Shown here: one piece after another, positions 3,991-24,251 of the stretch
Layout of the letters: each line of letters starts with the position of its first letter
Numbering within the stretch: the stretch's first letter is position 1
Assembly: GCA_021822495.1 (NCBI GenBank)
Contig: JAKAQO010000001.1
Coordinates: 452,808 to 516,807 of the forward strand
DNA: 64,000 nucleotides
Reading direction: 5' to 3'
Source: a bacterium
GTDB taxonomy: Bacteria; Elusimicrobiota; Elusimicrobia; UBA1565; UBA9628
Translations under genes and position numbers: made by a program
The notes under the pieces: generated by a model
What the model saw: the letters and a program-made list of their open reading frames with translations, nothing else
Database searches by the model: none
What the model was told of the DNA's origin: nothing

Positions 3991-4000
3991 ACATTCACCC

Positions 4001-5845: not shown

Positions 5846-7182
5846 GAATTTCTACCTCCCAGATAGCGGCCATACTCTCTGTAAAACGGCAAGCGGCATA
5901 TCCCCAACAGCCTTTCAAACGTCCGCAAAGCCCCCCACGGCCCCGCTTCAAAAACGGAAAGAGAAAATTGCGCTTTTCCCGCTCGACTGATTCTTCGATC
6001 GAAAAAATAATCAGAATAAACCGCGTCAAAAGCGCCCTCTTTGAGAAGGCGGTTTAATTCTTCTTCTTTGGAAAAGAAATCCACCGAAGCCTTAAACTGG
6101 GCGTTTGGAAGTTTCAATTTCAAATGATTTTTGGAAAAAATAAGAAAATCGAAATCAAAACCCATTTCGCTCAACATCTCAAACATTGGAATAGCGAAAG
6201 TCCAGCGGGAATCGATAATTTGAGGAATTTGCCTCGGCGAAAGAACAAAGGCTAGTCTTCTGCCCCGAGACTGACTCACTAGATTTTCCCACCGGCTTTT
6301 GAGGGGACTCCAATTCTTTCCCCAAACTTCCTGCGCGATTTGGCGATTGATACCGGCAGCTTCGCACACAGCTTCCAGCCACAAACGCCCTGCTTTGATG
6401 CCATAGGGCGCGGGCGGCGTCAAGGAATGCGTCGGAAATTGCAAGGCGAAATCTTTCGACTCACTCTCAAAAAGACGATGCCCAATCATGATGTTGAGAG
6501 ACGCCTTTCTCGCCAAACGCAGGGCTTCAAAGCCCAAAGAGGGAACGACGCAAGCGGCGACTGAAATCCCCGCTTGGTTTAGAAGTGAAACGAGTTCCTC
6601 CCGAGCCTTGCCCCCGGGATACCCGACCAGATTCACCGTCTTAGGCTCCGGCGAGAAATCTTTTTGCTTTTCCGATGATTTCTTAATCATCTCCTCCGTC
6701 GTTGAATAGGCAACATCGCGGCCATCGGAGGCGCGATAGATGCTTTTTATCTTTTCGCCGTGTTTGGGTAGAAAAGGCGTCGGATCCTCTCCGGTTAAAT
6801 CGGGAACGCAGGCGGAGTTAAGCATGATGATGTCATCAGGCCGAGCTTCTTGAGCCGCCAACCTAAAAGAATCTTCCACTTTTTTAAGGCTCTTTTGTCC
6901 TTCGGTCACCTCGGTCTCATTTAAATCCGTAAAAAGAAGTTTATAGGCTGCCGGTTTGGTCTCTTGATTGGCGATAGTCCAAGGAAAATTCCAAAATGGA
7001 ACTGTTTTCCCGTCAAACCATGGGAAGGTATAACGGCATTCAAGGTCTCCGTGCATGATATCAGTCGTTGGATTCTCGGGCACAAAAGAAGTTCTTCGGT
7101 GTCTCTGAATGTCCTCTGGACAGAAAAACCGGGCCCACAAATCTTGAAGAGCCGTGTGTAAAACGTAATTAAGAACGCTCAT
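5833..7182 (-). CDS. Nitrogenase component 1-like second subunit (NifK/BchB-like)
   Basis: A 449-residue protein related to nitrogenase component 1 beta-type subunits. Cys49 (GDLECRY) and Cys125 (LNSACVPDLTGED) match two family cluster ligands; the second resembles the TxCxxExIGDD region of NifK-type proteins. Together with the 614-residue neighbour it would form a hetero-oligomeric reductase, like DPOR or NifDK and unlike the homodimeric CfbD. The ATG at 7182 overlaps the preceding stop as ATGA; the upstream in-frame start at 7230 lies inside the neighbour. The order is K-like, D-like, H-like, all minus strand and overlapping or nearly so, which strongly suggests a single complex. The family is divergent, so subunit naming is by resemblance only. 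Confidence 0.78.
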   Translation of the reverse strand: MSVLNYVLHTALQDLWARFFCPEDIQRHRRTSFVPENPTTDIMHGDLECRYTFPWFDGKTVPFWNFPWTIANQETKPAAYKLLFTDLNETEVTEGQKSLKKVEDSFRLAAQEARPDDIIMLNSACVPDLTGEDPTPFLPKHGEKIKSIYRASDGRDVAYSTTEEMIKKSSEKQKDFSPEPKTVNLVGYPGGKAREELVSLLNQAGISVAACVVPSLGFEALRLARKASLNIMIGHRLFESESKDFALQFPTHSLTPPAPYGIKAGRLWLEAVCEAAGINRQIAQEVWGKNWSPLKSRWENLVSQSRGRRLAFVLSPRQIPQIIDSRWTFAIPMFEMLSEMGFDFDFLIFSKNHLKLKLPNAQFKASVDFFSKEEELNRLLKEGAFDAVYSDYFFDRRISRAGKAQFSLSVFEAGPWGALRTFERLLGICRLPFYREYGRYLGGRNSWAD

Positions 7183-8162
7183 GCGAGAACTCCTGTCGGG
7201 GACAAGGCGCGAAGGCTTTGAACCGTCCAAGGTTTTAGAGCCTCGCTTTCAAACAACTGCGTATAATCCCAATAGATTCCTCCGCAACGGCCTTTTAAAG
7301 CGCAATGGCCGCAGTCCTCGGGATAAAATTTCTCTCGAGAAGAGAACTCCGTATTTTCAAAATGCCAGCCAATTTTTCCGTTTTCCAGACGAGCCCGGGC
7401 GATCGTGGTGCGCGGACTATAAAACAAATCGTTAGAATAGCGCCAATAAGGCCCTAAAAGGCAAACAGGAATTCCATAAAAGCGCAAAGCGACTCTACGC
7501 TCTTGAGCTAATTCATGTAACTTAGGCAGGTGACGGGTAATTTCCTGATGTCGCACCGCCAAATCCTTATAATGCGCCCCACCGCCCCCATGCGGAGTGA
7601 TGTTTGAAACCAGAAATTGATCTAATTTCCCGTTGCGACTCAAAACATCCAACGTTTCTGGAATAACAGAAACATTCAGCCTCGTCACGACGTGATTAAT
7701 CATTAAAAAATTCAAATTTCCAAAATGAGAGATATGCCTCATCGCCAACATCAATTTATCAAAACTTCCGGAGACGCGCGTAGCCTGGTCATGAATTTTT
7801 TTATTAGGCCCATGAACTGATAGACATAGTTCATCGACATAGGGCAAAAGCTTCTCCGCATATCCTTGATTAGCGAGAGCGGAGCCATTGGATATGACAA
7901 AAACTCGATAGCCTATCCTCTTGGCGAAAGCCGCGATTTCCCAGAATTTGGGATACAGAGTCGGCTCTCCTCCAGTAAGCGTGACGTGATCAAAACCTTC
8001 CTCTCTTTTTGCCTCAAGCATCCCCAATATTTCTTCGCGCGAAACCGGAAAACCTCCGAATTCCCGCATATGGAATTCCTCGCTGCAAAAAACGCAGCGG
8101 TCAACACAGCGATAGATGATGTGAAACTCAAGACGCTTCATGGAATTTACGGATAAACTCAT
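7179..8162 (-). CDS. Short radical SAM protein with C-terminal CxxC group
   Basis: A 327-residue radical-SAM protein. YRCVDRCVFC gives Cys19, Cys23 and Cys26; TGGEPTLYP is the GGEP motif; and CGHCALKGRCGG near the C-terminus could bind an auxiliary cluster. It has the HDxxTxxxGSF segment shared with the proteins at 8159-9091, 17362-18306 and 33663-34556, which defines a subfamily within this cluster. The start at 8162 overlaps the preceding stop as ATGA. The internal ATG at 8141 is less likely. It is directly upstream of, and coupled to, the component-1-like genes, so it probably works on the same substrate. Reaction unknown. Confidence 0.87.
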   Translation of the reverse strand: MSLSVNSMKRLEFHIIYRCVDRCVFCSEEFHMREFGGFPVSREEILGMLEAKREEGFDHVTLTGGEPTLYPKFWEIAAFAKRIGYRVFVISNGSALANQGYAEKLLPYVDELCLSVHGPNKKIHDQATRVSGSFDKLMLAMRHISHFGNLNFLMINHVVTRLNVSVIPETLDVLSRNGKLDQFLVSNITPHGGGGAHYKDLAVRHQEITRHLPKLHELAQERRVALRFYGIPVCLLGPYWRYSNDLFYSPRTTIARARLENGKIGWHFENTEFSSREKFYPEDCGHCALKGRCGGIYWDYTQLFESEALKPWTVQSLRALSPTGVLA

Positions 8163-9091
8163 GATTGAGAAACCTCGGCGGATTTAAAAGGTATCAGTTC
8201 CGCATCTCCAAATTTTTCACAATAACGGGCTCCAGGACCGCCGCAAGGCTCGCGATAAGCGCACCCTTGGCATTTTTGAGTCAAGGTCTGAGCCGGATCG
8301 GCCAGGGAACTGTCCATCTCCCGCAAAGAGGGTTTTCCTTCTTTGTCGCGCACTCGAAAAACACTGAGAGCCGGATAGCGTTCCCAAACAACAGAGTTTT
8401 GATGGCGGCCATTGAGAATACAAAAAGGAAGTCCATAAAATCGAAGCGGAACCGGGCTCGCGCGACGCGCCATATCCTCAATTTTCTGGGCAATTACGCG
8501 ATGCTCTAAAATCAACTCATCATAATGGCGAGAACCATGGCCGATGGGAACTAATTCCGAAAGCCAGAACTCCTTGATTTTTGCTCTTTGATTGATTAAT
8601 GAAATGAGTTCCGGCAAGGAATTGATATTGATGGTCGTCGCAACCATGTTGACCGTAATTGTTGTTTTTGGACTCATCGAAGCGTTGTTTAAGGCTTGCA
8701 TCATTCTCTCAAAACTCCCGCAAGAACGGGTCATCTGGTCATGGCTTTCCGGAGTTCCGCCGTGGATGGATAAACAAAGCTCATCTAGGTATGGTAGCAC
8801 AGTTTTGACGGCAGAAGGCGCGGCAAATCCCGCTCCATTTGAGACGGCGCGGGTTCGGTAGCCCAAGCGTTTTGCAAACTGAAGAATAGCCCCAAAACGC
8901 GGATAGAGACTGGGTTCTCCTCCCACAAAACTCACATGGGAAAACCCTTCCCGCCTTTTGCGCAAAAGAATCATCTGCACTTCTTTTTCCTCAAGGGGCC
9001 ACGGGGCAAAAGCCTTCATGATTTGGGCATGGCTGCAAAAAACGCAGTCCACATCGCATTCGTAGGATAAGGTTATTTCAAGACAGCGCAT
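8159..9091 (-). CDS. Short radical SAM protein with C-terminal Cys-rich group
   Basis: 310 residues. CDVDCVFC (Cys12, Cys16, Cys19) and VGGEPSLYP mark the radical-SAM core. CQGCAYREPCGGPGARYC near the C-terminus suggests an auxiliary Fe-S cluster. It shares the HDQMTRSCGSF segment with its short radical-SAM relatives in the window. It overlaps the HemN-like gene upstream by 14 bases and is coupled by ATGA to the next gene, consistent with tight co-translation. Substrate unknown. Confidence 0.87.
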   Translation of the reverse strand: MRCLEITLSYECDVDCVFCSHAQIMKAFAPWPLEEKEVQMILLRKRREGFSHVSFVGGEPSLYPRFGAILQFAKRLGYRTRAVSNGAGFAAPSAVKTVLPYLDELCLSIHGGTPESHDQMTRSCGSFERMMQALNNASMSPKTTITVNMVATTININSLPELISLINQRAKIKEFWLSELVPIGHGSRHYDELILEHRVIAQKIEDMARRASPVPLRFYGLPFCILNGRHQNSVVWERYPALSVFRVRDKEGKPSLREMDSSLADPAQTLTQKCQGCAYREPCGGPGARYCEKFGDAELIPFKSAEVSQS

Positions 9092-10610
9092 GATATTTTT
9101 GGAAGCCTTGAGTTTTTAACGGGGAAGATTCTCGATAGTAAACACGCTGAAAATAAAAGTCTGAAATCTTTCGACGAATATTCTCTTCTAAGTTCACAGA
9201 GGACTTGTCATAGACCTCATAAAACCGAGCGCGCTCCTTCTCATAATAGCCAACCAAGGCCGAAACAAGACTCGGAGAATAGAATTTCCTTAATAAAACT
9301 TGTCGAGATAAGATGTCGGTGATTTTCCAACAAATCTCACGAGAATCAACAGAAATAATTTTTAGGCGCTCCAATTGAGAGATGATGGTCGCGAGAGGCT
9401 CATGCTCAACCACGTCCTTATGAAATATTCTTCGGAAGTCAGACCGATCTATATGATGGAAACGGCTTAGATTCCGAACCGCATAATGCCGCATTTCCTC
9501 TTCTAAATTGGATTCAAAGCAAAAGTAGGGAGGGATTCTCCCCATGGAAGATTTCGCCAAAGCAATCGGACGATGCTCATACCAACAAGAACCGAAGGCG
9601 TGGGACTTTGCGGCAAGCCCAAAACCCAAAACTGACGCCCCAAACTTTCTCAAACTCCCATCCTGGCGTTCCTCCAAGGGATTATCAATATCTTCCCCAG
9701 GAACCCAGTTTGACTGTCTATAACCCGAGCTTTTTAGTATCCTATCAGCGGCCAAACGCACGGCATCTGAATCCTTCCAATCAATTCCTTCCAAACGCTT
9801 ATGAAAACGAGACGCTAATGTTTGAGGACGCGAGTCGTAACTATAAACATGTATGACCTGCGGGCCAATTTTAACCATGGAATATAAATCACGCAAAAAT
9901 GAAAGCGTGGACTGCCCAGGCAACCCCATCATTAAGTCGACGTCAACAATAAGCGGCAACGAGAGAAGACTACGCAAAATATATTCCACTTTCTTCCGCG
10001 ACTGACCTACACGATTGACCCCGGAAACAATCCCGTCATCCAGCGACTGAACACCAAGAGTCACCCGGTTGACCCCATGAAAAATCAGCGTCTGCAACTT
10101 TGATTCCGTCAACGTCGCGGGAGAAGTTTCAACATAGAATTGAGCCCCAGGGGTCAGACGAAACCGAGAACGAACATGATTTAAGAGAGAAGATAATTCT
10201 TCATCGAGCATAAATGTCGGGGTCCCACCGCCAATATAAACGCTACCAAAAGCGTGGTTTCTGAAAACATCAGAAAAAGCGTCCATTTCTTCTTTTAGCG
10301 CATGAGCATACGCCTTCATTCCCACATCCCCATTTGGAACCGTCATGCTACAATGGCAAAACGTGCATTGACTTGGACAAAATGGCCAATGAATATAAAT
10401 CCCAATCTCTTTAGGCGCTCGTCCTGTGTCAATCAATTCCAATGTCTTTTTCCAAAATCCACGGATTTCTTCAAGGCTTGATTTTCGGAAATAAGGATAG
10501 TCCTGGTAAGGGCCGGTTTTAGGCGGACAGTCATCAGCCCTCCCCAAAGAGCTGAGAAATAGATACTTAATCCATTGACTCTTGGAGATTCCGCTCACGA
10601 TTTCCCCCAA
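9078..10610 (-). CDS. HemN-like radical SAM protein
   Basis: 510 residues. YIHWPFCPSQCTFCHC gives Cys78, Cys82, Cys85 and Cys87, the CxxxCxxCxC pattern of oxygen-independent coproporphyrinogen III oxidase HemN. GGGTPTF and the C-terminal winged-helix-like part (EEEMRHYAVRNLSRF) also fit the HemN/HemW/ChuW family, whose known members act on tetrapyrroles or transfer heme. It is one of five intact HemN-like paralogs here. All share an SHAFGSxWY-type segment that I do not recall from ordinary HemN, so a dedicated role is more likely than general heme synthesis. The start at 10610 overlaps the upstream stop by 16 bases. Confidence 0.88.
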   Translation of the reverse strand: MGEIVSGISKSQWIKYLFLSSLGRADDCPPKTGPYQDYPYFRKSSLEEIRGFWKKTLELIDTGRAPKEIGIYIHWPFCPSQCTFCHCSMTVPNGDVGMKAYAHALKEEMDAFSDVFRNHAFGSVYIGGGTPTFMLDEELSSLLNHVRSRFRLTPGAQFYVETSPATLTESKLQTLIFHGVNRVTLGVQSLDDGIVSGVNRVGQSRKKVEYILRSLLSLPLIVDVDLMMGLPGQSTLSFLRDLYSMVKIGPQVIHVYSYDSRPQTLASRFHKRLEGIDWKDSDAVRLAADRILKSSGYRQSNWVPGEDIDNPLEERQDGSLRKFGASVLGFGLAAKSHAFGSCWYEHRPIALAKSSMGRIPPYFCFESNLEEEMRHYAVRNLSRFHHIDRSDFRRIFHKDVVEHEPLATIISQLERLKIISVDSREICWKITDILSRQVLLRKFYSPSLVSALVGYYEKERARFYEVYDKSSVNLEENIRRKISDFYFQRVYYRESSPLKTQGFQKYHALS

Positions 10611-12079
10611 AACCTTGCGTCATGATAAACTCGAAACCCAGGAACGCTGTTTTTGCGAAGGACTTCTTGCCTCCAAAGAGCCGCGGAGTTAGAATCGCGG
10701 CCAAAAGCATGGATTTCCTTTGACCAACGGGAAATTAAAGCGGTTTTTATTTCCTCGCTATAAAGGTCCTTTAGGAAAACTTCTCTCTCAACTAAATCAT
10801 CAATATTTTGCAAAGAGATAAAATCCTTGCCAATGGCGACCTTTCTCTCTTTTTCCCAGCGATGAAAAACGGAAGCAAACGCGGTCTCCATAACATCCAC
10901 TTGAAACAAATTCAAAAAAGCTATTCGCGACAATCGCCTCGTTTGAGATAAGTACCAAATGGCATAGCCTCTCATTTCTTCCTCAATACTTGATTCCATC
11001 CAAAAAAATGGCGAAATTTTAGATTCATCTCCATGGGAAACCGGTGGATGCGTATACCAAGCGCTCCCATAAGCGTGGGAAATCGCGCTGGGGCCAATTC
11101 CCAAGACCGATGAGCGAAATTTCCGCAACCCGCCATCTTGTCTCTCTTCCCAAGGGTAAAGAACCGGACGCACGTTATCGTCCCGCTGTTGGCGATAGCC
11201 CCGTAAAGAACTTAAGCGATCCGCCAATTTAAGGACCTCTTCATACTCTTTTTTAAGGTCTCCCAACGCCTTTTCTCTGCGCCTTAACCAAGGAACCTGC
11301 GGACGCTCGTCAAAACTGTAAATATGGAGAAGATGCGGCCTTAAAAGCAAGACCTCATTCATATCCCGCAAAAATCCGGCAAATGATTGTCTCTCAATTC
11401 CCAACATCATGTCAATATCAACAATAAGCCCAGGAATGCTTTTAAGCTTCTGAAAAAGTTCTATAACTTTTTTGCGATTCTGACCTTGCCGATTGACCGC
11501 GGAGGTCACTTCATCGCTCAAGCTTTGAATCCCCAGGGTGATTCGGTTAACGCCGTATTTAATCAGTATCTCTAATTTTGAATCCGTTAACGTAGCTGGC
11601 GAAGCCTCAATATAAATTTGCGCATTCTGAGAAAATACAAATGAACGGCGAACATGGGAAAGAAGAAAATCCAGCTGTTGATCCGTCATAAAGGTCGGCG
11701 TCCCACCACCCATCCACAAACTTGAGAGAGACGTTCCAGAGAAAACATCGGAAAAAGAGTTAATTTCCTCAATTATGGAAGAATATACTCTTTCTACTTC
11801 CGTTTTATTCTTTGGAACCGCCATGCTACAAGCGCAAAAATCACAATGGCTGGGACAGAAGGGCCAATGAATATAAAGACCTACATCGGAGGGGGCGCGG
11901 CCCTCGCGGATGAGCCCCAAGGTTCTTCTCCATGCGTTTTGAATTTCCTCAAGACGCACAGGCTTAAAGTAAGTGGCTTGATAGGAAGAATTATCCCGCG
12001 GATAATAGAGTTCGCCATTCCAAACTAGAAAAGTCAGGAATTCAGGCAAAGAAAGGTTTCTTGTCAGAGCGAAACTCAT
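10595..12079 (-). CDS. HemN-like radical SAM protein
   Basis: 494 residues, with HWPFCPSHCDFCAC (Cys75, Cys79, Cys82, Cys84) and GGGTPTFMTD. The central region reads TLGIQSLSDEVTSAVNRQGQ, matching the HemN/HemW family consensus, and the C-terminal domain resembles HemN_C. The ATG at 12079 overlaps the preceding stop as ATGA, which favours it over the longer start at 12094. It follows a sister paralog (12076-13590) and precedes another (9078-10610), so three HemN-like genes lie in tandem. By family it should generate a 5'-deoxyadenosyl radical and probably act on a porphyrin-like or related compound; the exact step is unknown. Confidence 0.88.
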   Translation of the reverse strand: MSFALTRNLSLPEFLTFLVWNGELYYPRDNSSYQATYFKPVRLEEIQNAWRRTLGLIREGRAPSDVGLYIHWPFCPSHCDFCACSMAVPKNKTEVERVYSSIIEEINSFSDVFSGTSLSSLWMGGGTPTFMTDQQLDFLLSHVRRSFVFSQNAQIYIEASPATLTDSKLEILIKYGVNRITLGIQSLSDEVTSAVNRQGQNRKKVIELFQKLKSIPGLIVDIDMMLGIERQSFAGFLRDMNEVLLLRPHLLHIYSFDERPQVPWLRRREKALGDLKKEYEEVLKLADRLSSLRGYRQQRDDNVRPVLYPWEERQDGGLRKFRSSVLGIGPSAISHAYGSAWYTHPPVSHGDESKISPFFWMESSIEEEMRGYAIWYLSQTRRLSRIAFLNLFQVDVMETAFASVFHRWEKERKVAIGKDFISLQNIDDLVEREVFLKDLYSEEIKTALISRWSKEIHAFGRDSNSAALWRQEVLRKNSVPGFRVYHDARFWGKS

Positions 12080-13590
12080 AAAATCGAAGACCAAACGCGA
12101 GAGTCATAATAGGCCATGGTGTCATGCCCTGATTGGCCCTCACGGATAATTCTCCTCCAGTCTATCTCGTTTTTCCCAAACTTCAAGGAAAATGTATGGA
12201 ATGGTCCCGCTTCTGATTTAAAAATTGCCGCAATAATTTCCTTGCTATAAAGCCGTTTGATTTGAACGGCCAAATCAACCGGGTCTTGGTTTTTCCATAG
12301 GATAAAATCTGACTCTATATTTATAAACCCACGTCCTGCTAAATCCAAAATCGGCTCGGCCAAGAAATTAAAATTGAGAATATCATCTTTAAAAACATCT
12401 CGAAATACTTTCCTAGACATCTTGCGGCTGCGAGCTAGAGATTCAATGGCATAGCCCCGCATTTCTTCTTCAGCGCTGGAAGAAATTAAAAAATAAGAGG
12501 GAATTTGCGCGCCATAATTCCCTGAGAAAAAATCTTTTCCAGGCGCGCGCGGGTGACAATACCAAGCCGAACCAAAAGCATGGGATAAAGCGCTGTGGCC
12601 AAGCCCCAAGAAAGAACCCCTAAAACGCCTCCATGACGCTTCTTGGCGGCTTTCCCAAGGATAAAGCGTAGAGTCGTTCCAATTATCGTTCCATCTCTGG
12701 TAACCCGCGCGAGAGCACATTCGATCGGCAAGAAGCGTCAATTGTGATTCTATTTTTCTCTCTTGATCGGTAACCATTTTTCCCTGTTTGCGAAATTCTG
12801 TTTGGGGAGCGTCTTCAAAGGGGTAAAGATGAATACAGCGAGGCCTTAGATGGATAATCTCTTCCATGTCCTTAACAAAAATTGGCGCCTTCTGTCCTTC
12901 CATGCTAATCATCAAATCTACATCCGTAATCAGATTAGGGATGTGAGACATCTTTTCAAAAATATCTCTCACCTTGGCCTTCGTCTGTCCAGTTCGGTTA
13001 AGCTTTTTGAGAAGCTCGTCGTCAAAAGTTTGAACCCCCACGGTGATTCGATTAAACCCGTGTTTGAGTAGAATATCGAGTTTTTTCGGAGTTAAGGTTG
13101 AAGGCGAGGCTTCGGTATAAATCTGAGCCGAACGGGAAAATTGAAAACTCTGGTGCATATGCGACAAAAAATCATCCAACATTTGATCGGTCATGAAGGT
13201 CGGCGTCCCGCCGCCCATATAAACGCTGGAAAACTCCATGCCCTTAAATACCTCTCGAAATTGACTCATCTCATCTTTAAGGGCGATCATGGCGCCTTCC
13301 ATGTCTCGGTTTCTATCGGGAACGAGCATGCTACAGCGGCAAAAAGTACATTGACTAGGACAAAAAGGCCAATGGATGTAAAGGCCAAGCTCCGAAGGAG
13401 CTTTCCCCTCCCTCATCAAGGAAATAGTATGCCGCCACGCTTCTTTGACGCGATCCAGTTCCGCTTTTTGGAAATAACGCGCGGTAATAAAAGAACCGTC
13501 CAATGGGGGATAATATTCATCCCTGTAAATAGTTGAGATAAACTCTGCCCAAGGCAAAGAAAGCGCTTGTTTATTTAAAGTTGATAGCAC
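12076..13590 (-). CDS. HemN-like radical SAM protein
   Basis: 504 residues. HWPFCPSQCTFCRC (Cys77, Cys81, Cys84, Cys86), GGGTPTFMTD and a VGVQTFDDELLKKLNRTGQ region place it with HemN/HemW. The N-terminal 70 residues (SLPWAEFIST..YYPPLDGSF..ARYF) are shared by all HemN-like paralogs in this window but lie outside the radical-SAM core, so they may form a docking or substrate-binding element. It begins 10 bases after the TPR gene ends. The C-terminal region has the usual winged-helix character (EEEMRGYAIESLARS). Confidence 0.88.
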   Translation of the reverse strand: MLSTLNKQALSLPWAEFISTIYRDEYYPPLDGSFITARYFQKAELDRVKEAWRHTISLMREGKAPSELGLYIHWPFCPSQCTFCRCSMLVPDRNRDMEGAMIALKDEMSQFREVFKGMEFSSVYMGGGTPTFMTDQMLDDFLSHMHQSFQFSRSAQIYTEASPSTLTPKKLDILLKHGFNRITVGVQTFDDELLKKLNRTGQTKAKVRDIFEKMSHIPNLITDVDLMISMEGQKAPIFVKDMEEIIHLRPRCIHLYPFEDAPQTEFRKQGKMVTDQERKIESQLTLLADRMCSRAGYQRWNDNWNDSTLYPWESRQEASWRRFRGSFLGLGHSALSHAFGSAWYCHPRAPGKDFFSGNYGAQIPSYFLISSSAEEEMRGYAIESLARSRKMSRKVFRDVFKDDILNFNFLAEPILDLAGRGFINIESDFILWKNQDPVDLAVQIKRLYSKEIIAAIFKSEAGPFHTFSLKFGKNEIDWRRIIREGQSGHDTMAYYDSRVWSSIL

Positions 13591-13600
13591 AAAACACCCC

Positions 13601-15850
13601 TCAGATTTTGCGAATGCACTCTAAAATTCCCCTTTCTTTTTCTAATTGCATTATGATTCCCTCAAGGCGCCCCACCTCTTTCATCTCTCTGTTCTCATTC
13701 AATATTCGAGTTAAAATAGAAGCAATATCAAGAAGTTGAGAATTATACATCACATCTGCTGCGCGCATGGCGAGAAGAGTTTTTGGCGAATTCGGTCTCT
13801 GCCTTCGCTCAACGAAACTGCGGACCATGCTCTTCTTTTGTAAGATTCGCGCCGCTCTACAATCATCTCTACCAATCAAGCAAATTTCGGCCAACAAAGC
13901 TCGTTCAATATCTTCTATTTCTCGTTGTAGATGGAAGATATCCGGCATATGCCAACGGATCCAATGGTAGGAAATATTGTCCTGACTCGGAAATTCCTGC
14001 GAAACTGCTTCAATAAAATCCAGATAGGCTTCTTTCCGCCTGCCCGCGAAAAAGAATGCCTTTCCTCTCCACAATCTGGGAAGAATAAATGTTGGAGACA
14101 TTCTAAGAGCGCAATCTAAACTCTCAATCGCTCTTTCATATTTCCCAGCCCTAAAGTAGGATTCTCCCAACCATGTCCAGGTCAAGGAGTTCCGAGGATT
14201 TTGTTTAAGCGCTTTAAGCAGCATCACGCGAGCTTGATTGATTTTATTATCGTTAAGATAAAGTCTCCCTATCCATGAAGGGGAATGCTCCAATAAACGT
14301 TCTCTTATCAACGGTGCGCCCCAAGCGGGGAAAGGCGAGGCCAATCGATTCCGTATTCGTCTACGGAGATTCTTTAGTTTCTGAAAAGAAGGAGAACTCT
14401 CTCCATAAATAGGCATAGGCCCCACACTGACCAAGTCATCATCCCCGGAATAGCTCAGGGAATATTTTCCGGAAGACATCATGCATTTCTCAAGTTCCTC
14501 AAGCGCGTCCTTCCATTGTTCCAATCGCCATAGAACTAAGGATTTTTCATGGATAGCTCTTTCGTGGAAAAAGAGGGCATTAACCCTCATTGAAAGAGAA
14601 GAATCTAAATCTTTTTTAGCTTCCACAAATTTCCCTTGAGAATTCTCCAGGCGAGCCCGCCAATAATAAGACAGCGCATAATCCTTATCCAGCCGAATTG
14701 CCTCATCAATATCTTCAAGGGCTTTTGTGGAATCCGTTTTTCTTCTCAATATCTGCGACCTAAAAGCTCTGATCCAACCGCAATGCGGAGCCAACCTCAC
14801 GGCATCTTCTATACACCCCTCTCCATAACTGGACAGATCATATCCAGCCTGTTCCTCAAGTGGGACGGAGGCCATTCGTGCCGCTAACGCATAATGCCAA
14901 GCGCGCCTAGATGACATCGCCAAATTTTTGAGCTCGAAATCAATACGATGAAATTTTGAAATAGAGATGAAGGAATGATAAAAAAGCAGATCGTGCGCAA
15001 CCATATAAGCCCATTCCGCCTGGGGATTCTTAGCGATAAATTGGCTAACAATCTTTATCAGTTGAATGGTATCTATGGGTCTATCCGAAATATCGATTTT
15101 CTCTTCTAGTAAAATAATTCGGATAAATCCGTCTAAAATATTGCACCCCCTATAAACGGCCTCATACGCCGCATCAATCGCAGAGTTTTTGTCTCCCAAT
15201 CTCCACAAGATATCAGCCTCTATGACCCATAAACCCGGAGAGCGGGGATTTAGATTTTTCGCCATTGAAATTTTCTTCTTGGCCTCCTCCCATCGGCATA
15301 ACTTCATCTTGACGATAGAATCTAAAACCCAAGCTACTTCCAAACGAGTATCCGCCTGTTCTATTATTGATAGATCAAAATCGGCCAACTCCCACTCTCC
15401 GCCAATTATGTACGCATAGGAACGCCACAATCTAAAATAGGTATTGCACTCATCTGCCTTTACGGCGCTATTCAGGCAACTCAAAGCAACTGAGATGTTG
15501 TTGGATAAAAAGCATTCGCCCTTTAGCGCATCTACCCATGGATGTCCCGGAGAAATTTTTTCGGCTAACTCTAAATTTCTCATTGCCTCATTAGGAAACC
15601 CCATTAATCTATTGAATCGGCCAAGAGCGCAAAAATCCCAGAATTCTCGAGACGAAACCTCTTCTAATTTTTCGAGAGACTCTTTATAATAGTCAGCACG
15701 ACGCGCAGAAGCAAAGGGAAGAAAATAATCGAAATTAAAAATAGAAATTCCCTTATAAGCCAGTGATAATACGTATTGTTCTATTCGTGGATGAATCCAC
15801 AAAAGATCAAGATCAGGAAGTTTAACCGCAGGCTTTAAAAGAGTCTCCAC
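13601..15850 (-). CDS. Large tetratricopeptide-repeat protein
   Basis: 749 residues made largely of helical 34-residue TPR-like units. Clear examples are WTWLGESYFRAGKYERAIES followed by LDCALRMSP in the C-terminal third, and ALSYYWRARLENSQGKFVEA in the middle. I see no signal peptide or catalytic motif, so it is probably a cytoplasmic scaffold. It sits between two HemN-like genes (gaps of 10 and 1 bases), which suggests that it assembles or organises those enzymes or binds a peptide substrate. A Cys-poor sequence argues against redox function. The scaffold role is inference from context only. Confidence 0.85.
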   Translation of the reverse strand: METLLKPAVKLPDLDLLWIHPRIEQYVLSLAYKGISIFNFDYFLPFASARRADYYKESLEKLEEVSSREFWDFCALGRFNRLMGFPNEAMRNLELAEKISPGHPWVDALKGECFLSNNISVALSCLNSAVKADECNTYFRLWRSYAYIIGGEWELADFDLSIIEQADTRLEVAWVLDSIVKMKLCRWEEAKKKISMAKNLNPRSPGLWVIEADILWRLGDKNSAIDAAYEAVYRGCNILDGFIRIILLEEKIDISDRPIDTIQLIKIVSQFIAKNPQAEWAYMVAHDLLFYHSFISISKFHRIDFELKNLAMSSRRAWHYALAARMASVPLEEQAGYDLSSYGEGCIEDAVRLAPHCGWIRAFRSQILRRKTDSTKALEDIDEAIRLDKDYALSYYWRARLENSQGKFVEAKKDLDSSLSMRVNALFFHERAIHEKSLVLWRLEQWKDALEELEKCMMSSGKYSLSYSGDDDLVSVGPMPIYGESSPSFQKLKNLRRRIRNRLASPFPAWGAPLIRERLLEHSPSWIGRLYLNDNKINQARVMLLKALKQNPRNSLTWTWLGESYFRAGKYERAIESLDCALRMSPTFILPRLWRGKAFFFAGRRKEAYLDFIEAVSQEFPSQDNISYHWIRWHMPDIFHLQREIEDIERALLAEICLIGRDDCRAARILQKKSMVRSFVERRQRPNSPKTLLAMRAADVMYNSQLLDIASILTRILNENREMKEVGRLEGIIMQLEKERGILECIRKI

Positions 15851-15851
15851 A

Positions 15852-17357
15852 TCAAGACCGCCCTAGCAAATACTCCGGGCAACACGCATCTTCAAATAGA
15901 GAACGCCTATAGTAAATACGGCAGTCGATATGGCCTTGCCGAGCGCGTATGCGCTGTTCTGATGAGGCTCCTTCAAAAGCATGAGTATGGTTTAAACGAA
16001 GCGTTGATTGAATCAGCGCTTCCGCCATTTTAGGACTATAAAGACTTTGAAGCGCGACGGCGCGCTCAACGATATCTTGCCCCCGCCAATACAAAGCCCT
16101 AGAATCAATTTTTATCAAGCCGCGCTTTTGAAACTCCTCCAAGGCGTGGAATACGGACGCGCATTCCGATATATCTTGGTGGAACAAACGACGGAATGCC
16201 TCGCGAGATATCTTGTTATTGCGCACAATACTCTCGATGACATAACCGCGCATTTCTTCTTCTACGTCAAATTCCAACATCTTGATGGGAGGAACGGCAT
16301 TATTTGACACCCCTTCAGGAGGCGGTTTTGGATGATAATACCAAGCCGCGCCAAAAATATGCGATAAAGCGCCATAACCAATCCCTAATATGGATGCCCG
16401 AAAATCCCTCCACAAAGCCTCATGCCTAGTCTCCCAAGAATTTTGCTTTAAAGTTTCCCAGTCTTCATAACCAGTCACATACCCCGCTTTCCTAGCCATG
16501 TAGTCGGCCAAATTAAGCAAGTGAGAGTTTCTGTCTTTTTGATTAAGGACAACTTTTTTTCCCCGTTTTTTCCACAAAGTCCTCTCATCATCCGCGAAAG
16601 GATAAAGATGAATAGAATGCGGAGAAAGCGTCAATATCCGAGAAAAATCTTTTACAAAAGTGGAATCCCTTTGTCCTTCCAAACCAATCATCATATCGGT
16701 GTCGATAAACAAATCAGGAAACTTTCTAAACAAAGCAAATAATGTCCGCACTTTCTGTTCATCTTGTCCTTTCCTATCAATTCGGCCGAGAACCTGCGCG
16801 TCGAATGTTTGGATGCCCAATGTCATTCGGTTGGCTCCATGGCGAATAAGTATTTTCAGTTTAGACTCAGTCAAGGTCGCCGGAGAAGCATCCACATGAA
16901 TTTGGGCCCCAGGAGCGAGTTTAAAACTCTCGCGTATAGCGGATAAAAAATTTTCCAGCATCGCATCCGTCATAAAAGTCGGCGTCCCACCGCCTATATA
17001 CAAACTTGGAAAAGAAATTCCCTTAAACGTATCCTTGAAACGACCCATTTCTTCTCTCAATGAGTTCAAAACCAACTCTTGTTCTTTATGGTGACTGGAA
17101 GATTCCATCCCAAAGCGACAAAAAGAGCAATAACTTGAACAAAAAGGCCAGTGAACATAAAGAAGTATTGGATGCGAAAGGCCCAGGGGCGAGGACAAAG
17201 TCCTTTTCCATAACTCTCGAATTTCTTCAATAGATGTATCCTTAAAATAGGCAAAAGACTTATCAGATAGACCTCTATCCAATGGTGGGTAATGTTCCGC
17301 TCTATAGGAAAAAGGAATAATATAGGAGTTTGGAATTTCTTTTAGTAAGTTAGTCAT
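15852..17357 (-). CDS. HemN/HemW-like radical SAM protein with CxF in place of CxC
   Basis: 501 residues of the same paralog family. The cluster motif is HWPFCSSYCSFCRF (Cys73, Cys77, Cys80). The fourth HemN cysteine is replaced by Phe82, as in HemW-type proteins, while the other intact paralogs in the window keep CxC. GGGTPTFMTD and LGIQTFDAQVLGRIDRKGQ are otherwise typical. It starts four bases after the short radical-SAM gene at 17362-18306. The substitution may reflect a different role in the set, such as cofactor binding or transfer, although HemW itself still binds SAM. The inference is weak. Confidence 0.87.
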   Translation of the reverse strand: MTNLLKEIPNSYIIPFSYRAEHYPPLDRGLSDKSFAYFKDTSIEEIRELWKRTLSSPLGLSHPILLYVHWPFCSSYCSFCRFGMESSSHHKEQELVLNSLREEMGRFKDTFKGISFPSLYIGGGTPTFMTDAMLENFLSAIRESFKLAPGAQIHVDASPATLTESKLKILIRHGANRMTLGIQTFDAQVLGRIDRKGQDEQKVRTLFALFRKFPDLFIDTDMMIGLEGQRDSTFVKDFSRILTLSPHSIHLYPFADDERTLWKKRGKKVVLNQKDRNSHLLNLADYMARKAGYVTGYEDWETLKQNSWETRHEALWRDFRASILGIGYGALSHIFGAAWYYHPKPPPEGVSNNAVPPIKMLEFDVEEEMRGYVIESIVRNNKISREAFRRLFHQDISECASVFHALEEFQKRGLIKIDSRALYWRGQDIVERAVALQSLYSPKMAEALIQSTLRLNHTHAFEGASSEQRIRARQGHIDCRIYYRRSLFEDACCPEYLLGRS

Positions 17358-17361
17358 ATCA

Positions 17362-18306
17362 CTAGCGTTCCAATAAGATTGAAACCGGGTTTAACTCTCC
17401 CGCGCCAAAGTGTTGGATATAAACATTGGAAACCCCAAGGCAAGTCTTTCCTTTTAAAGAACAATGACAACAAAGATCAGGGAAAGCCCTCATTCGTTGT
17501 GGGCCATAGCGACGACTGTCTTCTAAATCCAAGCCATGTTCTCTCAAAATTCGCGTTCTACCAGAGGATAGCGATAACTCTTGGTGAAAATCCGCGGAAT
17601 ATGGAAATACTTCCCCCAAAACGCAAGCTGGTATTCCCAAAAAGCGCACATCTCGTCCATGTTGCTGTGCTAGACGAACCCATTCCGGCGCCTTCGCGCG
17701 AATTTGTTCTAAACGCACCACGCGCTCAAGATATTTGGATATAGGCTCTGTTTCGTTGGGAGTTAAGTTTGAAATTAGAAAATGCCTAACGACGGAATAG
17801 GAACTAAATAGCCGCAGGAGCTCCTCGATACCAAAAAAATTATCCCGCGTTAAAACGGAACTAATTGAGACTTCGGGACAATGAGCAGCCTCTTTGAAAA
17901 TAGACAAGGACTTAAGGATATTGCCAAAGCTCCCGGGAGTTGCAGTTAGAGAATCATGGATTTTTTCGGATGGCCCATGAACCGAAAATACAAGCTCATC
18001 AATTAACGGTAACGCTTTTTGGGCAAAATTCTCGCGCGCAAGCCTCTGGCCATCAGTGATTACGAGGGTCCTATAACCCAAAATTTTTGCGCTCCGCAAG
18101 ATTTTTAAGAAAGACGGATGAATCGTCGGTTCTCCGCCGACAAAGGTAATATGTTCATATCCTTCTTTCCTTTTCCTAATCATGACGGCCAAAAGCTCTT
18201 CTTGACCGGGTTGGCGATTCCCATATTTTTTCATACGCGAAGATTCAGAGCAAAAAACGCATTTCTGATCGCATTTATAAGAGAGATAAAGTTCTAAACT
18301 TTTCAT
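17362..18306 (-). CDS. Short radical SAM protein with C-terminal Cys group
   Basis: 314 residues. YKCDQKCVFC (Cys12, Cys16, Cys19), VGGEPTIHP, IHDSLTATPGSF, and a C-terminal CCHCSLKGKTCLG that may ligate a second cluster. It belongs to the same subfamily as 7179-8162 and 8159-9091. The ATG at 18306 overlaps the preceding HemN-like stop by four bases (ATGA). The alternation of short radical-SAM and HemN-like genes in this stretch suggests paired action. Substrate unknown. Confidence 0.87.
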   Translation of the reverse strand: MKSLELYLSYKCDQKCVFCSESSRMKKYGNRQPGQEELLAVMIRKRKEGYEHITFVGGEPTIHPSFLKILRSAKILGYRTLVITDGQRLARENFAQKALPLIDELVFSVHGPSEKIHDSLTATPGSFGNILKSLSIFKEAAHCPEVSISSVLTRDNFFGIEELLRLFSSYSVVRHFLISNLTPNETEPISKYLERVVRLEQIRAKAPEWVRLAQQHGRDVRFLGIPACVLGEVFPYSADFHQELSLSSGRTRILREHGLDLEDSRRYGPQRMRAFPDLCCHCSLKGKTCLGVSNVYIQHFGAGELNPVSILLER

Positions 18307-19793
18307 TGCTGGTTAATTTTATAATAGATACGGCAATCTCGCCGCGAATAACTGTCAATGACTGATTTTCTCCATTCCTGATCGCCCACAGCGTAGCGTT
18401 TTAAAAAATCTTGAAAGCAATCATGATCGGCCGATAAAACCATATCGCGGATAAACGGGCTGTAAAGGCTTTTGAGGGCGATAGCTTTCTCAAGCCAGTC
18501 TTCAGTCTCCCAAAAAAGTGCGTTCTTATCTATTCTAATAATACCTTCACACTCCATTCGAAGAAGAACTGATGACAAAAAATCTACCTCCAGCATATCT
18601 ACTCCAAAGAGAGAGCGGAAAGACCTGCGTGAAACGAACCTATTTTCTCCTAAAAATCCGATAATAAAAGAGCGCATTTCCTCTTCGATGCTGAAGTCAA
18701 CTGAGAAAAACGGAGGAATGACGGGGTGGGGCAATTCTCTGCTGGCTGGAATCATCTCATGGTGATACCACAAGGTTCCAAACGCGTGCGAAACGGTTCC
18801 ATATCCCAAAGCCAAGATAGATCCTTTTCCGCGCCGCCAAGGCGCCTCTCGGGTTGACTCAGAATCGCAAAGAATGGAGCTTTTACATTCATCAGAACGA
18901 TACCCGGCCTTACCAGCCATATAGTCCGCTAATTTCAACAAATGCTCCATTTGAGCGCGCTTCTCAAGAGATACTCTTCCAGACTTTTGACTAAATTGAG
19001 TCTGTGGCGAATCTTTGAAGAGATAAAGGTGCATACAATCTGGTTTAAGACTAAGGGCCGTTTCCATATCTTTAATAAATATAGAAGGAGTCTGCCCCTC
19101 AAGACCCACAATGAGGTCGATATCCGTTGTCAGATTAGGAACGCAAGCAAGCATCTGAAAAGCTTCAATTGAGTTCTCTCTTGTCTGGCCCTGTCGGTTA
19201 AGAGAGCTCAAAAGTTTATTATCAAAGGTCTCAATTCCCATCGCAATGCGATTAAAACCATGCCTGAGTAAAATATCCAATTTTGATTTTGTCAGCGTGG
19301 CTGGAGAACTCTCTGAATAAATCTCAGCCCCAGGAGCGAAATTAAAATATCTCTTAATATAAGAGAGAAAATCGTCCAACATATCGTCATCCATAAAAGT
19401 CGGGGTTCCGCCCCCGATATAAAAACTCGAAAGCAAAATTCCAGAAAAAATAGGACTAAATAAATCAATTTCTTTTTTCAAGGCTTGAAGACCTGCTTTA
19501 ACGACCTCGCGCCCATGAGGAACCGCCATTTGGCAAAAGCAAAAACTGCACTGCGAAGGACAAAATGGCCAGTGTATATAGAGATTGATCTCTGGCGGAG
19601 CTAACCCCTCGCGGATAAGACGAATTGTTTTCTTCCATCCTGAAACAATATCCACGGATTGAGATGCTTTAAAACAACTAGAAGGACTGTGAATATCTCC
19701 GACAGGGAAATATCTCCGATTGTCATAAGTTGCCGCTAAAAAAGCCGCCCAGTCTGGGATATTAAGTTCAGCAACTCCAGAATTTTTGGTCAT
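18303..19793 (-). CDS. HemN-like radical SAM protein
   Basis: 496 residues. HWPFCPSQCSFCFC (Cys78, Cys82, Cys85, Cys87), GGGTPTFMDD and MGIETFDNKLLSSLNRQGQ place it among the HemN-like paralogs. It has the conserved N-terminal extension (PDWAAFLAATYDNRRYFPVG) and the C-terminal winged-helix-like part. It overlaps the degenerate paralog upstream by 26 bases. Family knowledge gives SAM-radical chemistry, commonly on tetrapyrrole side chains. The actual reaction here is unknown. Confidence 0.88.
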   Translation of the reverse strand: MTKNSGVAELNIPDWAAFLAATYDNRRYFPVGDIHSPSSCFKASQSVDIVSGWKKTIRLIREGLAPPEINLYIHWPFCPSQCSFCFCQMAVPHGREVVKAGLQALKKEIDLFSPIFSGILLSSFYIGGGTPTFMDDDMLDDFLSYIKRYFNFAPGAEIYSESSPATLTKSKLDILLRHGFNRIAMGIETFDNKLLSSLNRQGQTRENSIEAFQMLACVPNLTTDIDLIVGLEGQTPSIFIKDMETALSLKPDCMHLYLFKDSPQTQFSQKSGRVSLEKRAQMEHLLKLADYMAGKAGYRSDECKSSILCDSESTREAPWRRGKGSILALGYGTVSHAFGTLWYHHEMIPASRELPHPVIPPFFSVDFSIEEEMRSFIIGFLGENRFVSRRSFRSLFGVDMLEVDFLSSVLLRMECEGIIRIDKNALFWETEDWLEKAIALKSLYSPFIRDMVLSADHDCFQDFLKRYAVGDQEWRKSVIDSYSRRDCRIYYKINQQ

Positions 19794-21111
19794 AATAGAT
19801 GCGCGTTTTTGAATGCAATTGCCTCAAAGCGACTTGTCTTTTTATTTCTTCATTATTTTCTTTAAAGTTTATCGAAAATTCCCGGAGAGCATACCCATCA
19901 GCCTTAAGCAATCTTTTGATAACATGAGGGCTCAAAAACCACTTCAGACAAGTCGCTTTTTCAAACGCATCTCTCCCAATCCATGAGATAAAATCATGGT
20001 TGACGGAGATTAAGCCTAATTTCACTAAGCGAGAAAACAATGGGTTTAAGAACTCAACTTCCAGCGCGTCTCTCTTAAATAAATCCTTAAAATTTCGGCG
20101 AGAAAGCCTATTTGTCTGTTCTAATGACCCCAACGCATAAGACCTTATTTCATCCTCCATGCTCCAATCAGTCACGGCGTTATAACGAAAACCATTACCC
20201 ATGCGAGGTGAAAATTCGCAAGCATACCATCCAACACCAAAAGCATGAGACATCACTTGGGGGCCTAAGCCTACGCTAGAAAAACGCAATTTATGTTTTG
20301 AACGCCAAACCTTTGTCTCCCAAGGCCAAAAATCCAAGTAGCCAATCCGATCATCTTCTTGCATGGCATAACCGTTCTTTCGCAAATAAGAGCCCAGTAA
20401 ATCCCACCAATTGGTTTTAAAACGTGGAGAATTTTCAATTGAACTCAAACATAAAATTTGAGGCCTTATCTTTAAAACATCCTTTAATTTTTTTTCAAAA
20501 GATTCTGCGCTATAGATATCCTTGACAGAAACCTCCAAAGAGAGCATGATTTTAGGAAGTTCCTTCAAAGAACTTAAGATGCCCTCTAAATTTTTATTCT
20601 CTTGGGGAGAAATATGAAGAGAAACAGAGGAAACATATCTCAGAATATTTCTTCCAACCTTTGCGGCACGATCTAAAATCTTAAGAGAGAAAAAGGCTCC
20701 GGGCTCAAGATCGAACTGTTCCCTAATCAAACACAAAAATTCTTCAATTTCATCAACCGATGAATTCATAGCCTCAAGAGATACTCCCTTAAACGGAATC
20801 CCGCGAAAAATCCCACCTAGATTAGATATATCTCTCTTTAAAATCTCCGTGGTATTTCTTTCTAAAGGAAGAACAATTTCTAAAGCTATTTCTTCTGGGA
20901 TGACTCTTTGCTGCCTAAGTAAAAGATACTCATTCCATAATTGATAGATATAGGACGATTTTACTGGATCAAAATAGGCAGGTAAATGGGTTGAACTCTT
21001 CCGTGGGAAACAGTAGTATTGCCGATAATTGGCGGATAAAAACTCAGGCCAAAGAAAAGATGAATCTGTTTTGAGCGGTTGAACCCTTCCTGCGGTCAGA
21101 AGCCGCTCCAT
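19768..21111 (-). CDS. Degenerate HemN-like paralog without cluster cysteines
   Basis: 447 residues, co-linear with the HemN-like neighbours. It keeps the N-terminal extension (LWPEFLSANYRQYYCFP), an SHAFGVGWY segment and the C-terminal winged-helix part (MEDEIRSYALGSLEQTNRLS), but the region that should hold HWPFCxxxCxFCxC reads ALEIVLPLERNTTEILKRD, with no cysteine. It cannot bind the SAM cluster and is likely a non-catalytic partner or scaffold. The frame is intact over the full length, so it is not an ordinary decaying pseudogene. The start is the ATG at 21111, or a TTG at 21117 just after the upstream stop. Confidence 0.8.
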   Translation of the reverse strand: MERLLTAGRVQPLKTDSSFLWPEFLSANYRQYYCFPRKSSTHLPAYFDPVKSSYIYQLWNEYLLLRQQRVIPEEIALEIVLPLERNTTEILKRDISNLGGIFRGIPFKGVSLEAMNSSVDEIEEFLCLIREQFDLEPGAFFSLKILDRAAKVGRNILRYVSSVSLHISPQENKNLEGILSSLKELPKIMLSLEVSVKDIYSAESFEKKLKDVLKIRPQILCLSSIENSPRFKTNWWDLLGSYLRKNGYAMQEDDRIGYLDFWPWETKVWRSKHKLRFSSVGLGPQVMSHAFGVGWYACEFSPRMGNGFRYNAVTDWSMEDEIRSYALGSLEQTNRLSRRNFKDLFKRDALEVEFLNPLFSRLVKLGLISVNHDFISWIGRDAFEKATCLKWFLSPHVIKRLLKADGYALREFSINFKENNEEIKRQVALRQLHSKTRIYYDQKFWSC

Positions 21112-21117: not shown

Positions 21118-22173
21118 CTACTCTTGGGAATCCGACGGGGAAGGCCCCTGCGGGGGTTGTTTGTTCATGAGGGAACGCTTAATTTTTTGAAAACGTTTGA
21201 GTTCCTCGGCTCGTTCCTGTTTTTTGTCGTAGTACTTTTCCTTCTGATCTTGTGGTAAGAAGTTTATGAATTTATCGCCATCTTTATAAGGTGGCAAATG
21301 GTTAATTTTGCGAAATGTCGCTTCTTGGTGGATCATTTCCGAAAACTTATGCTTGACAAACCCAACGCAATATTCACGTACAGCCGCCTTTTGCTTTAAT
21401 TTCAAGGCCTCTTCCAAAGATTCTTTTAGAGGGGAGCAGGCATCTCCATGTGATATGCTAAGAAGGCCTCTACAAACGGCAGAATCTCCGCACAAAGCGG
21501 GATCCCCTTTTGAGCGAACCATCGCCGCCATATCCTTACAGTGCTCGGCATAAGCCGAACCCCACTTGGACATTCCCATACAGGCCTTGGACCCCGCCAA
21601 ATAAGCGAACTGATGTTTACAAGACGGATCCGTCATCCCAAGATTCTCGCAAAGTTTGGCCGGAGTCATTCCCTGTCTTATGCCTTCTACCATCTTCGAG
21701 CAAAGACGATTCCGTTGATCTAAAGGGATTGAAGCGGAAGAGGGAATGGTTTTCAAACACAATGAAACCGCTCCTGGAGATTTGGAAACCATCGCGGCAA
21801 TAGACATATCCTCTTCATAACGCCTCTGACAAGAAAGAACTCCTTTAGACCCGCAACTTTTTTGAAATTTAGCGCAAGGTTTCATGCTCTTAGCAATTAA
21901 GGCCCTACAGACTTGGTAAGACATCAACTTGCCTTCGCATTGGGCAGGCAAATGCCCCTTCGGCATATGAGCGCCACGGGAATAATCAATGGATTCTGGA
22001 GGGGTCTTGAGACATTGTTCCGTTAGAAAACGTTTAAGGCCGGCTTTTGTCCGCGGCAAATTAGCATAGGCCGGGGCAACAGTATGATGCGGCGGAGGCG
22101 GCTTAGGTCCTGCCGCAAAAGCAGAAACAGACGTTAGAAAGGGCAAAAAACCAAAACAAAAAATATATTTCAT
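21118..22173 (-). CDS. Secreted cysteine-rich protein
   Basis: 351 residues. The N-terminus (MKYIFCFGFLPFLTSVSAFAA) is a clear signal peptide, followed by a proline/histidine stretch (GPKPPPPHH). The mature part holds 16 cysteines spaced at roughly 10-25 residues (for example KPCAKFQKSCGSKGVLSCQ), suggesting many disulfides or metal sites; no CxxCH heme motif is present. The C-terminus is charged. The gene begins three bases after the stop of the HGS-repeat gene, so the two are almost certainly co-expressed. It may be an export partner or envelope receiver of the modified repeat protein. I do not recognise the family. Confidence 0.78.
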   Translation of the reverse strand: MKYIFCFGFLPFLTSVSAFAAGPKPPPPHHTVAPAYANLPRTKAGLKRFLTEQCLKTPPESIDYSRGAHMPKGHLPAQCEGKLMSYQVCRALIAKSMKPCAKFQKSCGSKGVLSCQRRYEEDMSIAAMVSKSPGAVSLCLKTIPSSASIPLDQRNRLCSKMVEGIRQGMTPAKLCENLGMTDPSCKHQFAYLAGSKACMGMSKWGSAYAEHCKDMAAMVRSKGDPALCGDSAVCRGLLSISHGDACSPLKESLEEALKLKQKAAVREYCVGFVKHKFSEMIHQEATFRKINHLPPYKDGDKFINFLPQDQKEKYYDKKQERAEELKRFQKIKRSLMNKQPPQGPSPSDSQE

Positions 22174-22548: not shown

Positions 22549-22553
22549 AAAGG

Positions 22554-24041: not shown

Positions 24042-24251
24042 TTAGGCCATTTGGGCGAGGACGTGATTGGAAAACTCTCCCCAAAACTCCTCGTTTATTT
24101 CGGTTCCAGATTCAGGCCGAACAAAAATTTCAATTTTTCCATTTTCCTCGGCGATGGAAAATTGAGCGAACTCCGAAAAATCCGTCGCCGCGGATTCTAC
24201 CGCTTTTTTTGAATACAAAGATGAGTCAAGGAGATATTTTTTCTCGCTCAT
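24042..24251 (-). CDS. Small HxsD-like protein
   Basis: 69 residues, with YSKKAVESAATDFSEFAQFS and a following beta-rich part (KIEIFVRPESGTEINEEFW). It looks like a shortened relative of the HxsD-like protein just upstream (YSLESIYKACYHFLEKFYV...VYFRPKSGT). In Hxs loci HxsD is a small partner of the maturases, probably in substrate recognition. The ATG at 24251 overlaps the upstream stop as ATGA. It is between the larger HxsD-like gene and HxsB, so a two-part recognition system is possible. Confidence 0.7.
   Translation of the reverse strand: MSEKKYLLDSSLYSKKAVESAATDFSEFAQFSIAEENGKIEIFVRPESGTEINEEFWGEFSNHVLAQMA

Follow-up and report, generated by a model that had tools for sequence, protein, structure and literature searches.

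Why does a bacterium with only one HemN-family gene elsewhere in its genome, an ordinary HemW, carry six HemN-like genes in a single array, and what might the catalytically dead member of that array contribute? The question is raised by a 64-kb stretch of contig JAKAQO010000001.1 (hereafter, the window), part of a 2.2-Mb draft genome of the phylum Elusimicrobiota (15 contigs, 94.7% complete). The six genes, here called N1 (9078), N2, N3, N4 (15852), N5 (18303) and N6 (19768), share an operon with genes for a His-Xaa-Ser repeat peptide, HxsA4, for its maturation enzymes and for a nitrogenase-like reductase, and because of this company a peptide is a likelier target of the array than a haem-like pigment. 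We consider it reasonably probable that the locus is a maturation operon of the ribosomally synthesized and post-translationally modified peptide (RiPP) type, in which the HemN-like enzymes tailor HxsA4 and N6 serves as a non-catalytic partner.

The HemN-like array

The array and the two genes interspersed in it are arranged as follows, with G003 denoting a related genome.

9078-10610, minus strand: N1, HemN-like radical S-adenosylmethionine (SAM) protein; sites intact; one-to-one partner in G003
10595-12079, minus strand: N2, HemN-like radical SAM protein; sites intact; G003 partner at 66% identity
12076-13590, minus strand: N3, HemN-like radical SAM protein; AlphaFold model with a predicted local distance difference test score (pLDDT) of 87; closest solved fold, HemN (1OLT)
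13601-15850, minus strand: TPR-repeat protein in the N3/N4 interval; absent in G003
15852-17357, minus strand: N4, HemN-like protein; without Cys71 of HemN and with Asp for Glu145; G003 partner broken by a stop and truncated
17362-18306, minus strand: HxsC/HxsC4-like radical SAM protein in the N4/N5 interval; below model cut-offs
18303-19793, minus strand: N5, HemN-like radical SAM protein; adjoins the dead copy N6
19768-21111, minus strand: N6, catalytically dead HemN-like pseudoenzyme; no CxxxCxxC, no GGGTP, Tyr to Glu, Glu to Lys

All six open reading frames, five intact and one degenerate, are present as a sequence-only reading of the window had described them, and the common features to which it drew attention are real: a conserved N-terminal region of ~65 residues precedes the CxxxCxxC loop position in every member, and the SHAFGxxWY segment occurs as SHAFGSCWY, SHAYGSAWY, SHAFGSAWY, SHIFGAAWY, SHAFGTLWY and SHAFGVGWY. 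Identity to N1 declines from 41% in N2 through 37% (N3), 34% (N4) and 33% (N5) to 24% in N6. The best NCBIfam matches of N1-N5 are the STM4012, HemN and HutW models, at 111-154 bits and far below all the equivalog cut-offs; N6 matches no NCBIfam family. By E. coli HemN numbering, N1-N5 retain Tyr56, the CxxxCxxC loop, GGGTP, Arg184 and Asp209, and the CX3CX2CXC pattern of HemN is kept in four of these five; the departures are Asp at Glu145 and Phe at Cys71 in N4 and Glu at Gln172 in N5. Tyr56 and Asp209, which correspond to the residues contacting the second SAM (SAM II) in class C methylases, are thus present in all five active copies and gone from N6.

A maximum-likelihood tree of 49 proteins, in which ChuW stood for ChuW/HutW and from which HutW, HemZ, NosN and NocN sequences were left out, unites N1-N6 and their relatives from G003, G001, G017, G024 and G026 in one clade (bootstrap 100, Shimodaira-Hasegawa-like approximate likelihood ratio test 99), separate from HemN (100/100), HemW, ChuW and STM4012. 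The paralogs therefore did not scatter among the HemN and HemW branches, the outcome that the earlier reading had named as its refutation. The family models agree with this placement: the HemN model TIGR00538 scores the array proteins at 117-143 bits against a cut-off of 325, the ChuW/HutW model TIGR04107 at 111-125 bits against 400, and the HNxxYW motif of HemW is missing in all six. A profile search picks up NocN as a sequence match. Judged by sequence, the array arose by lineage-specific expansion of HemN-like (class C-like) radical SAM proteins and was added in one lineage. Two further searches were less informative: a search for related loci returned mainly ordinary HemN relatives and only two closer ones, both already found, and a HemN_C domain search of the same genome gave zero matches, the true HemW included, and was not used as evidence.

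Multi-copy arrays of this sort are unusual, as had been supposed: about half of the 57 related genomes searched have one HemN-family match or none, and the N1-N6 clade is present in 6 of the 44 genomes of the family. The same paralog set was nonetheless recovered in G003, where every one of N1-N5 has its own counterpart, a fragment in the case of N4; the duplications therefore predate the split between the two genomes. In G003, the N4 gene is shortened and broken by a stop, the TPR gene is missing, and an extra HemN-like gene, absent from the window, lies between NflK and the HxsC-like pair (L055:11604-13250). The array thus appears to be old but not fixed, with two to six HemN-like copies among close relatives and one copy decaying.

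The surrounding operon and its recurrence

The genes from 159 to 34556 form a single same-strand run of ~34 kb, mostly overlapping and with a largest gap of 209 nt, which extends past the left edge of the window. In the order of transcription, its first half comprises two HxsC-like genes, an HExxH hydroxylase, an unnamed gene, two membrane proteins, HxsD, HxsB, HxsA4 and a secreted protein; the second half comprises N6, N5, an HxsC-like gene, N4, the TPR gene, N3, N2, N1, two HxsC-like genes, NflK, NflD, NflH and three radical SAM genes. Besides N1-N6 and HxsB, the operon contains eight radical SAM genes, mostly HxsC-like. HxsA4, HxsB and HxsD all score above their NCBIfam cut-offs and identify a His-Xaa-Ser system, and no HxsC-like gene of the operon reaches the HxsC (267.9) or HxsC4 (500) cut-off. 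The genes outside the array are these.

33663-34556, minus strand: HxsC4-like radical SAM protein, first gene of the run
31445-33661, minus strand: two-domain HxsC/HxsC4-like radical SAM protein
30189-31448, minus strand: aKG-HExxH-type peptide beta-hydroxylase (TIGR04267, 101.8 bits, cut-off 40)
29206-30132, minus strand: unnamed protein that recurs beside Hxs genes at other loci
27002-29173, minus strand: unnamed hydrophobic protein, probably of the membrane
24832-27084, minus strand: unnamed hydrophobic protein, probably of the membrane, with a TPR-like C-terminus
24248-24799, minus strand: HxsD (TIGR03976, 65 bits, cut-off 50)
22554-24038, minus strand: HxsB radical SAM/SPASM maturase (TIGR03978, 502 bits, cut-off 370)
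22177-22608, minus strand: HxsA4 His-Xaa-Ser repeat peptide (NF038313, 98 bits, cut-off 55); 15 HxS units; C-terminal GAW
21118-22173, minus strand: unnamed protein with an apparent signal peptide and many Cys; directly downstream of HxsA4 in G001 and G010 too
8159-9091, minus strand: HxsC-like radical SAM protein
7179-8162, minus strand: HxsC-like radical SAM protein
5833-7230, minus strand: NflK, nitrogenase component 1-type protein; Cys65 and Cys141 invariant among relatives
4001-5845, minus strand: NflD, nitrogenase component 1-type protein; Cys55 invariant, Cys79 and Cys123 mostly kept
3064-4008, minus strand: NflH, NifH-type ATPase
2071-3063, minus strand: HxsC4-like radical SAM protein
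1178-2122, minus strand: radical SAM protein of peptide-maturase type; best model PapB, below cut-off
159-1202, minus strand: HxsC4-like radical SAM protein; the run goes on beyond the window with another such gene

HxsA4 has 15 His-Xaa-Ser units here, compared with 9-34 in relatives, preceded by a conserved leader with an apparent export signal; translation probably begins at an inner ATG. At least two C-terminal types occur, the protein ending not in GAW or GQW but in CRGGWC[NC]PRC in the relatives L003, L004, L006, L007 and L008. The nitrogenase-like genes encode one NifH-type and two component 1-type proteins, with Fer4_NifH and Oxidored_nitro above cut-off; the conserved Cys residues of NflD and NflK could hold an iron-sulfur cluster, and a PDB search with NflK gave no significant match.

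Just left of the window lies a gene for a type IV prepilin peptidase-domain protein (L077:2851-4017), overlapping the run's final radical SAM gene. A 17-bp palindromic repeat, AAGGGGACWGTCCCCTT, occurs in the window at 31063-31079, 33799-33815, 33826-33842 and 46844-46860; it is found at 79 places in the genome, compared with none for a reversed control, and some copies lie inside genes, where they add KGTVPF to the proteins.

The pairing of HemN-like genes with HxsA4 recurs. Among the 57 relatives, ten further genomes (G001, G010, G013, G017, G019, G020, G024, G026, G029 and G032) have HemN-like genes, HemW excluded, within 16 kb of HxsA4 on the same contig, and two or more HemN-family matches occur in 19 of the 29 genomes with HxsA4 and 6 of the 28 without it, counts that are uncorrected for kinship. 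The G001 locus is smaller: its genes for the secreted protein, HxsA4, HxsB and HxsD are immediately preceded by two HemN-like genes, one active and one dead. A nitrogenase-like gene was not found in this genome, which is 80% complete, and the link between HemN-like genes and HxsA4 therefore seems independent of the nitrogenase-like genes.

The nitrogenase-like genes themselves also follow HxsA4. NflH-like genes are present in 43 of the 294 genomes of the phylum, 34 of them in this class and nine outside it; HxsA4 accompanies 32 of the 34 carriers within the class (Fisher p 1e-20, with no correction for kinship; p 0.009 within the family, in the 57-genome set) and none of the nine beyond it. 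The two exceptions in the class are G003 and G004, whose contigs end inside the locus. Nfl genes and HxsA4/HxsB genes are also close neighbors, at most a few kb apart, in a second family of the class, at loci from which HemN-like genes are usually missing; one such locus (L174:5119-16493) is a compact same-strand group of NflD, NflH, several radical SAM genes, HxsA4, HxsB and HxsD that has no HemN-like genes. The core link is that between HxsA4 and radical SAM genes, often joined by Nfl genes.

Candidate substrates and the dead copy

For the peptide, the following route can be envisaged. The substrate would be the HxsA4 precursor, in which a leader at the N-terminus and a probable export signal accompany a core built of 15 His-Xaa-Ser units. 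Modification of the repeats would be begun by HxsB, with HxsD, and by the HxsC-like enzymes, and beta-carbons would be hydroxylated by the HExxH enzyme, whose relatives are hydroxylases of His and Asp, or of Gln runs, within RiPP precursors (PMC12636437). N1-N5 would apply two-SAM chemistry of the HemN/NosN type to peptide side chains, each being responsible for a separate site or step. NosN, NocN and TbtI are examples of HemN-family enzymes that work on RiPP peptides using two SAM molecules (PMC12871812), and the equivalents of Tyr56, Arg184 and Asp209 in N1-N5 count in favor of such chemistry. The NifH/D/K-like complex might provide a further, optional reductive step. That a nitrogenase-fold, ATP-driven reductase and a HemN-like set with a dedicated dead partner act together on a His-Xaa-Ser repeat peptide is a more tentative idea, which we regard as possible.

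Several observations weigh against assigning the array to the peptide. HemN-like genes are absent from most of the HxsA4 loci read in another family of the class and are, on that account, not core to the Hxs system, and no HxsA system with a described product turned up in the literature searched. Haem precursors are made in this organism (hemB, hemL, hemE), so that a tetrapyrrole substrate is available, and tetrapyrrole-reducing enzymes are among the relatives of the nitrogenase-like complex. Meheust 2020, in the ISME J, reportedly predicts tetrapyrrole reduction for loci of group VI nitrogenase and radical SAM genes.

These points lead to the most serious alternative, anticipated in part by the sequence-only reading, which had proposed stepwise radical modification of several equivalent positions, for instance on tetrapyrrole side chains. 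Here, the HemN-like enzymes would modify side chains of a porphyrin-type ring and the nitrogenase-like complex would reduce the ring, yielding a new cofactor that is perhaps later bound by the His-rich HxsA4. Such a pathway would suit the HemN fold that is closest to the array proteins, the CX3CX2CXC pattern in four of the five active copies and the presence of hemB, hemL, hemE and a protoporphyrinogen-oxidase-type gene in the genome; moreover, PMC9391474, citing Meheust 2020, assigns such nitrogenase paralogs to group VI, "putative tetrapyrrole cofactor biosynthesis." However, the motifs required for coproporphyrinogen oxidation, RNFQGYTT and GPRYTSYPTA (PMC10320005), are found in none of the six array proteins, compared with all five reference HemN sequences, and HNxxYW of HemW is likewise absent. 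A genome search revealed no uroporphyrinogen methylase, the sole TP_methylase match resembling RsmI; the peptide genes and a peptide hydroxylase share the operon; and the HemN-like copy number varies between close relatives. A tetrapyrrole pathway is thus unlikely in our assessment, and with the motifs missing and the operon being a His-Xaa-Ser peptide locus, tetrapyrrole side chains fare poorly as the substrate; a copy number of two to six fits lineage-specific tailoring better than stepwise change of equivalent positions. The two readings could be combined if a tetrapyrrole were attached to the peptide.

The haem genes lie elsewhere in the genome, hemB-hemL adjoining succinate dehydrogenase genes (L075:12541-14804) and hemE adjoining the protoporphyrinogen-oxidase-type gene (L081:10269-12714). 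By analogy with known coproporphyrin-dependent pathways, the haem pathway can apparently run via HemE and the protoporphyrinogen-oxidase-type protein without HemN.

Under the peptide reading, N6 would have kept its N- and C-terminal parts to bind the peptide or to pair with an active copy, most simply its neighbor N5. Although the cluster loop and GGGTP are gone and Glu and Lys replace Tyr56 and Glu145, respectively, its open reading frame of 447 codons is intact and overlaps N5. A second HemN-like protein without CxxxCxxC and GGGTP (493 aa, intact open reading frame) occupies the place of N6 in G001, adjoining the secreted protein and HxsA4. The two dead copies are 28% identical and are joined at 98/97 in the full-length tree; on the C-terminal columns alone they are joined at only 34/18, and long-branch attraction between them is possible. 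The pairs of active copies compared share 44-50% identity in the barrel and 31-36% in the C-terminal domain, whereas in the dead copies barrel identity drops to 17-31% and that of the C-terminal domain stays at 28-34%. Both dead copies retain 32 strongly conserved residues, many of them in the SHAFGxxWY segment and the C-terminal domain. The N6 model (pLDDT 79) best matches HemN 1OLT, although its alignment included active copies and the fold is thus partly borrowed. This identity pattern suggests a pseudoenzyme under continued selection rather than a free-running pseudogene, and the earlier idea of a hetero-oligomeric machine fits N6 as a putative non-catalytic subunit, given the dead copy at the same place in G001 and C-terminal identity at the level of active copies.

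The same data bear on a simpler account, in which a redundant paralog is simply decaying into a pseudogene, N6, and the array reflects transient noise in copy number. Members of the array do decay, N4 being visibly broken in G003 by a stop and truncation together with loss of the TPR gene, and the weak joining of the dead copies on the C-terminal columns would also suit this account. Yet the intact frame of N6, the intact second dead copy in G001 that is joined to it at full length, the relaxation of the barrel only, with C-terminal identity near that between active copies, and the 32 residues held in common make this account improbable. Least probable of all is that the HemN-like proteins are chaperones or transfer proteins that give a cofactor to HxsA4 or secreted proteins, their SAM sites being structural: precedents come from the HemN family itself, in which HemW and CgdH2 of C. 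jejuni are reported to be haem chaperones (PMC10320005), a dead member would be tolerated and the His repeats may bind metal or haem, but HNxxYW is absent in all six, nearly every checked catalytic residue is retained in N1-N5, and conservation among the active copies is higher in the barrel than in the C-terminal domain, the reverse of the pattern that dispensable catalysis would predict.

Comparison with known systems

Both Hxs systems and group VI loci have been recognised before; in the literature searched, outside of which lies the text of Meheust 2020, no description was found of the HemN-like array, of its dead partner or of the tie linking HxsA4 to nitrogenase-like genes. The co-occurrence in 32 of 34 genomes offers a single testable proposal for the products of His-Xaa-Ser systems and of group VI nitrogenase paralogs alike, namely, that HxsA4 is the peptide for which both the nitrogenase-like complex and the radical SAM suite work. 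If so, a nitrogenase-like enzyme would enter RiPP maturation, and the group VI paralogs of Elusimicrobiota would be re-assigned from tetrapyrrole to peptide chemistry. A role as substrate-binding partner can be proposed concretely for the dead HemN-like protein beside the precursor gene; for reconstitution, the two-HemN locus of G001 provides a small system, and for the link between Nfl and the peptide, the L174 locus provides a cleaner one.

The array proteins resemble HemN in fold (N3 matches 1OLT with a template modelling score of 0.71 by target), in the CX3CX2CXC pattern of four of the five active copies and in the similar length of the N-terminal extension; they differ in forming a separate clade, in missing both coproporphyrinogen motifs and in having no HemN_C match above cut-off. 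With the class C radical SAM methylases NosN, NocN and TbtI, they appear to share membership in a HemN-type fold family and the Tyr and Asp of two-SAM binding, although N1-N6 form a clade of their own in a tree that did not include NosN and NocN. PsgB (TIGR04419), a HemN-related non-iron pseudo-SAM protein, sets a precedent for a HemN relative without an iron-sulfur site, and N6 does not match its model.

As in the group VI nitrogenase loci of Elusimicrobia, NifH/D/K-like genes stand amid many radical SAM genes; unlike in the tetrapyrrole prediction reported for that group, the present locus is tied to the HxsA4 peptide. The closest counterpart overall is the His-Xaa-Ser (HxsABCD) system in its HxsA4/HxsC4 variant, with HxsA4, HxsB and HxsD above the curated cut-offs and HxsC/HxsC4-like genes in the run, from which this operon is set apart by its HemN-like array, dead HemN-like protein, HExxH hydroxylase and NifH/D/K-like complex.

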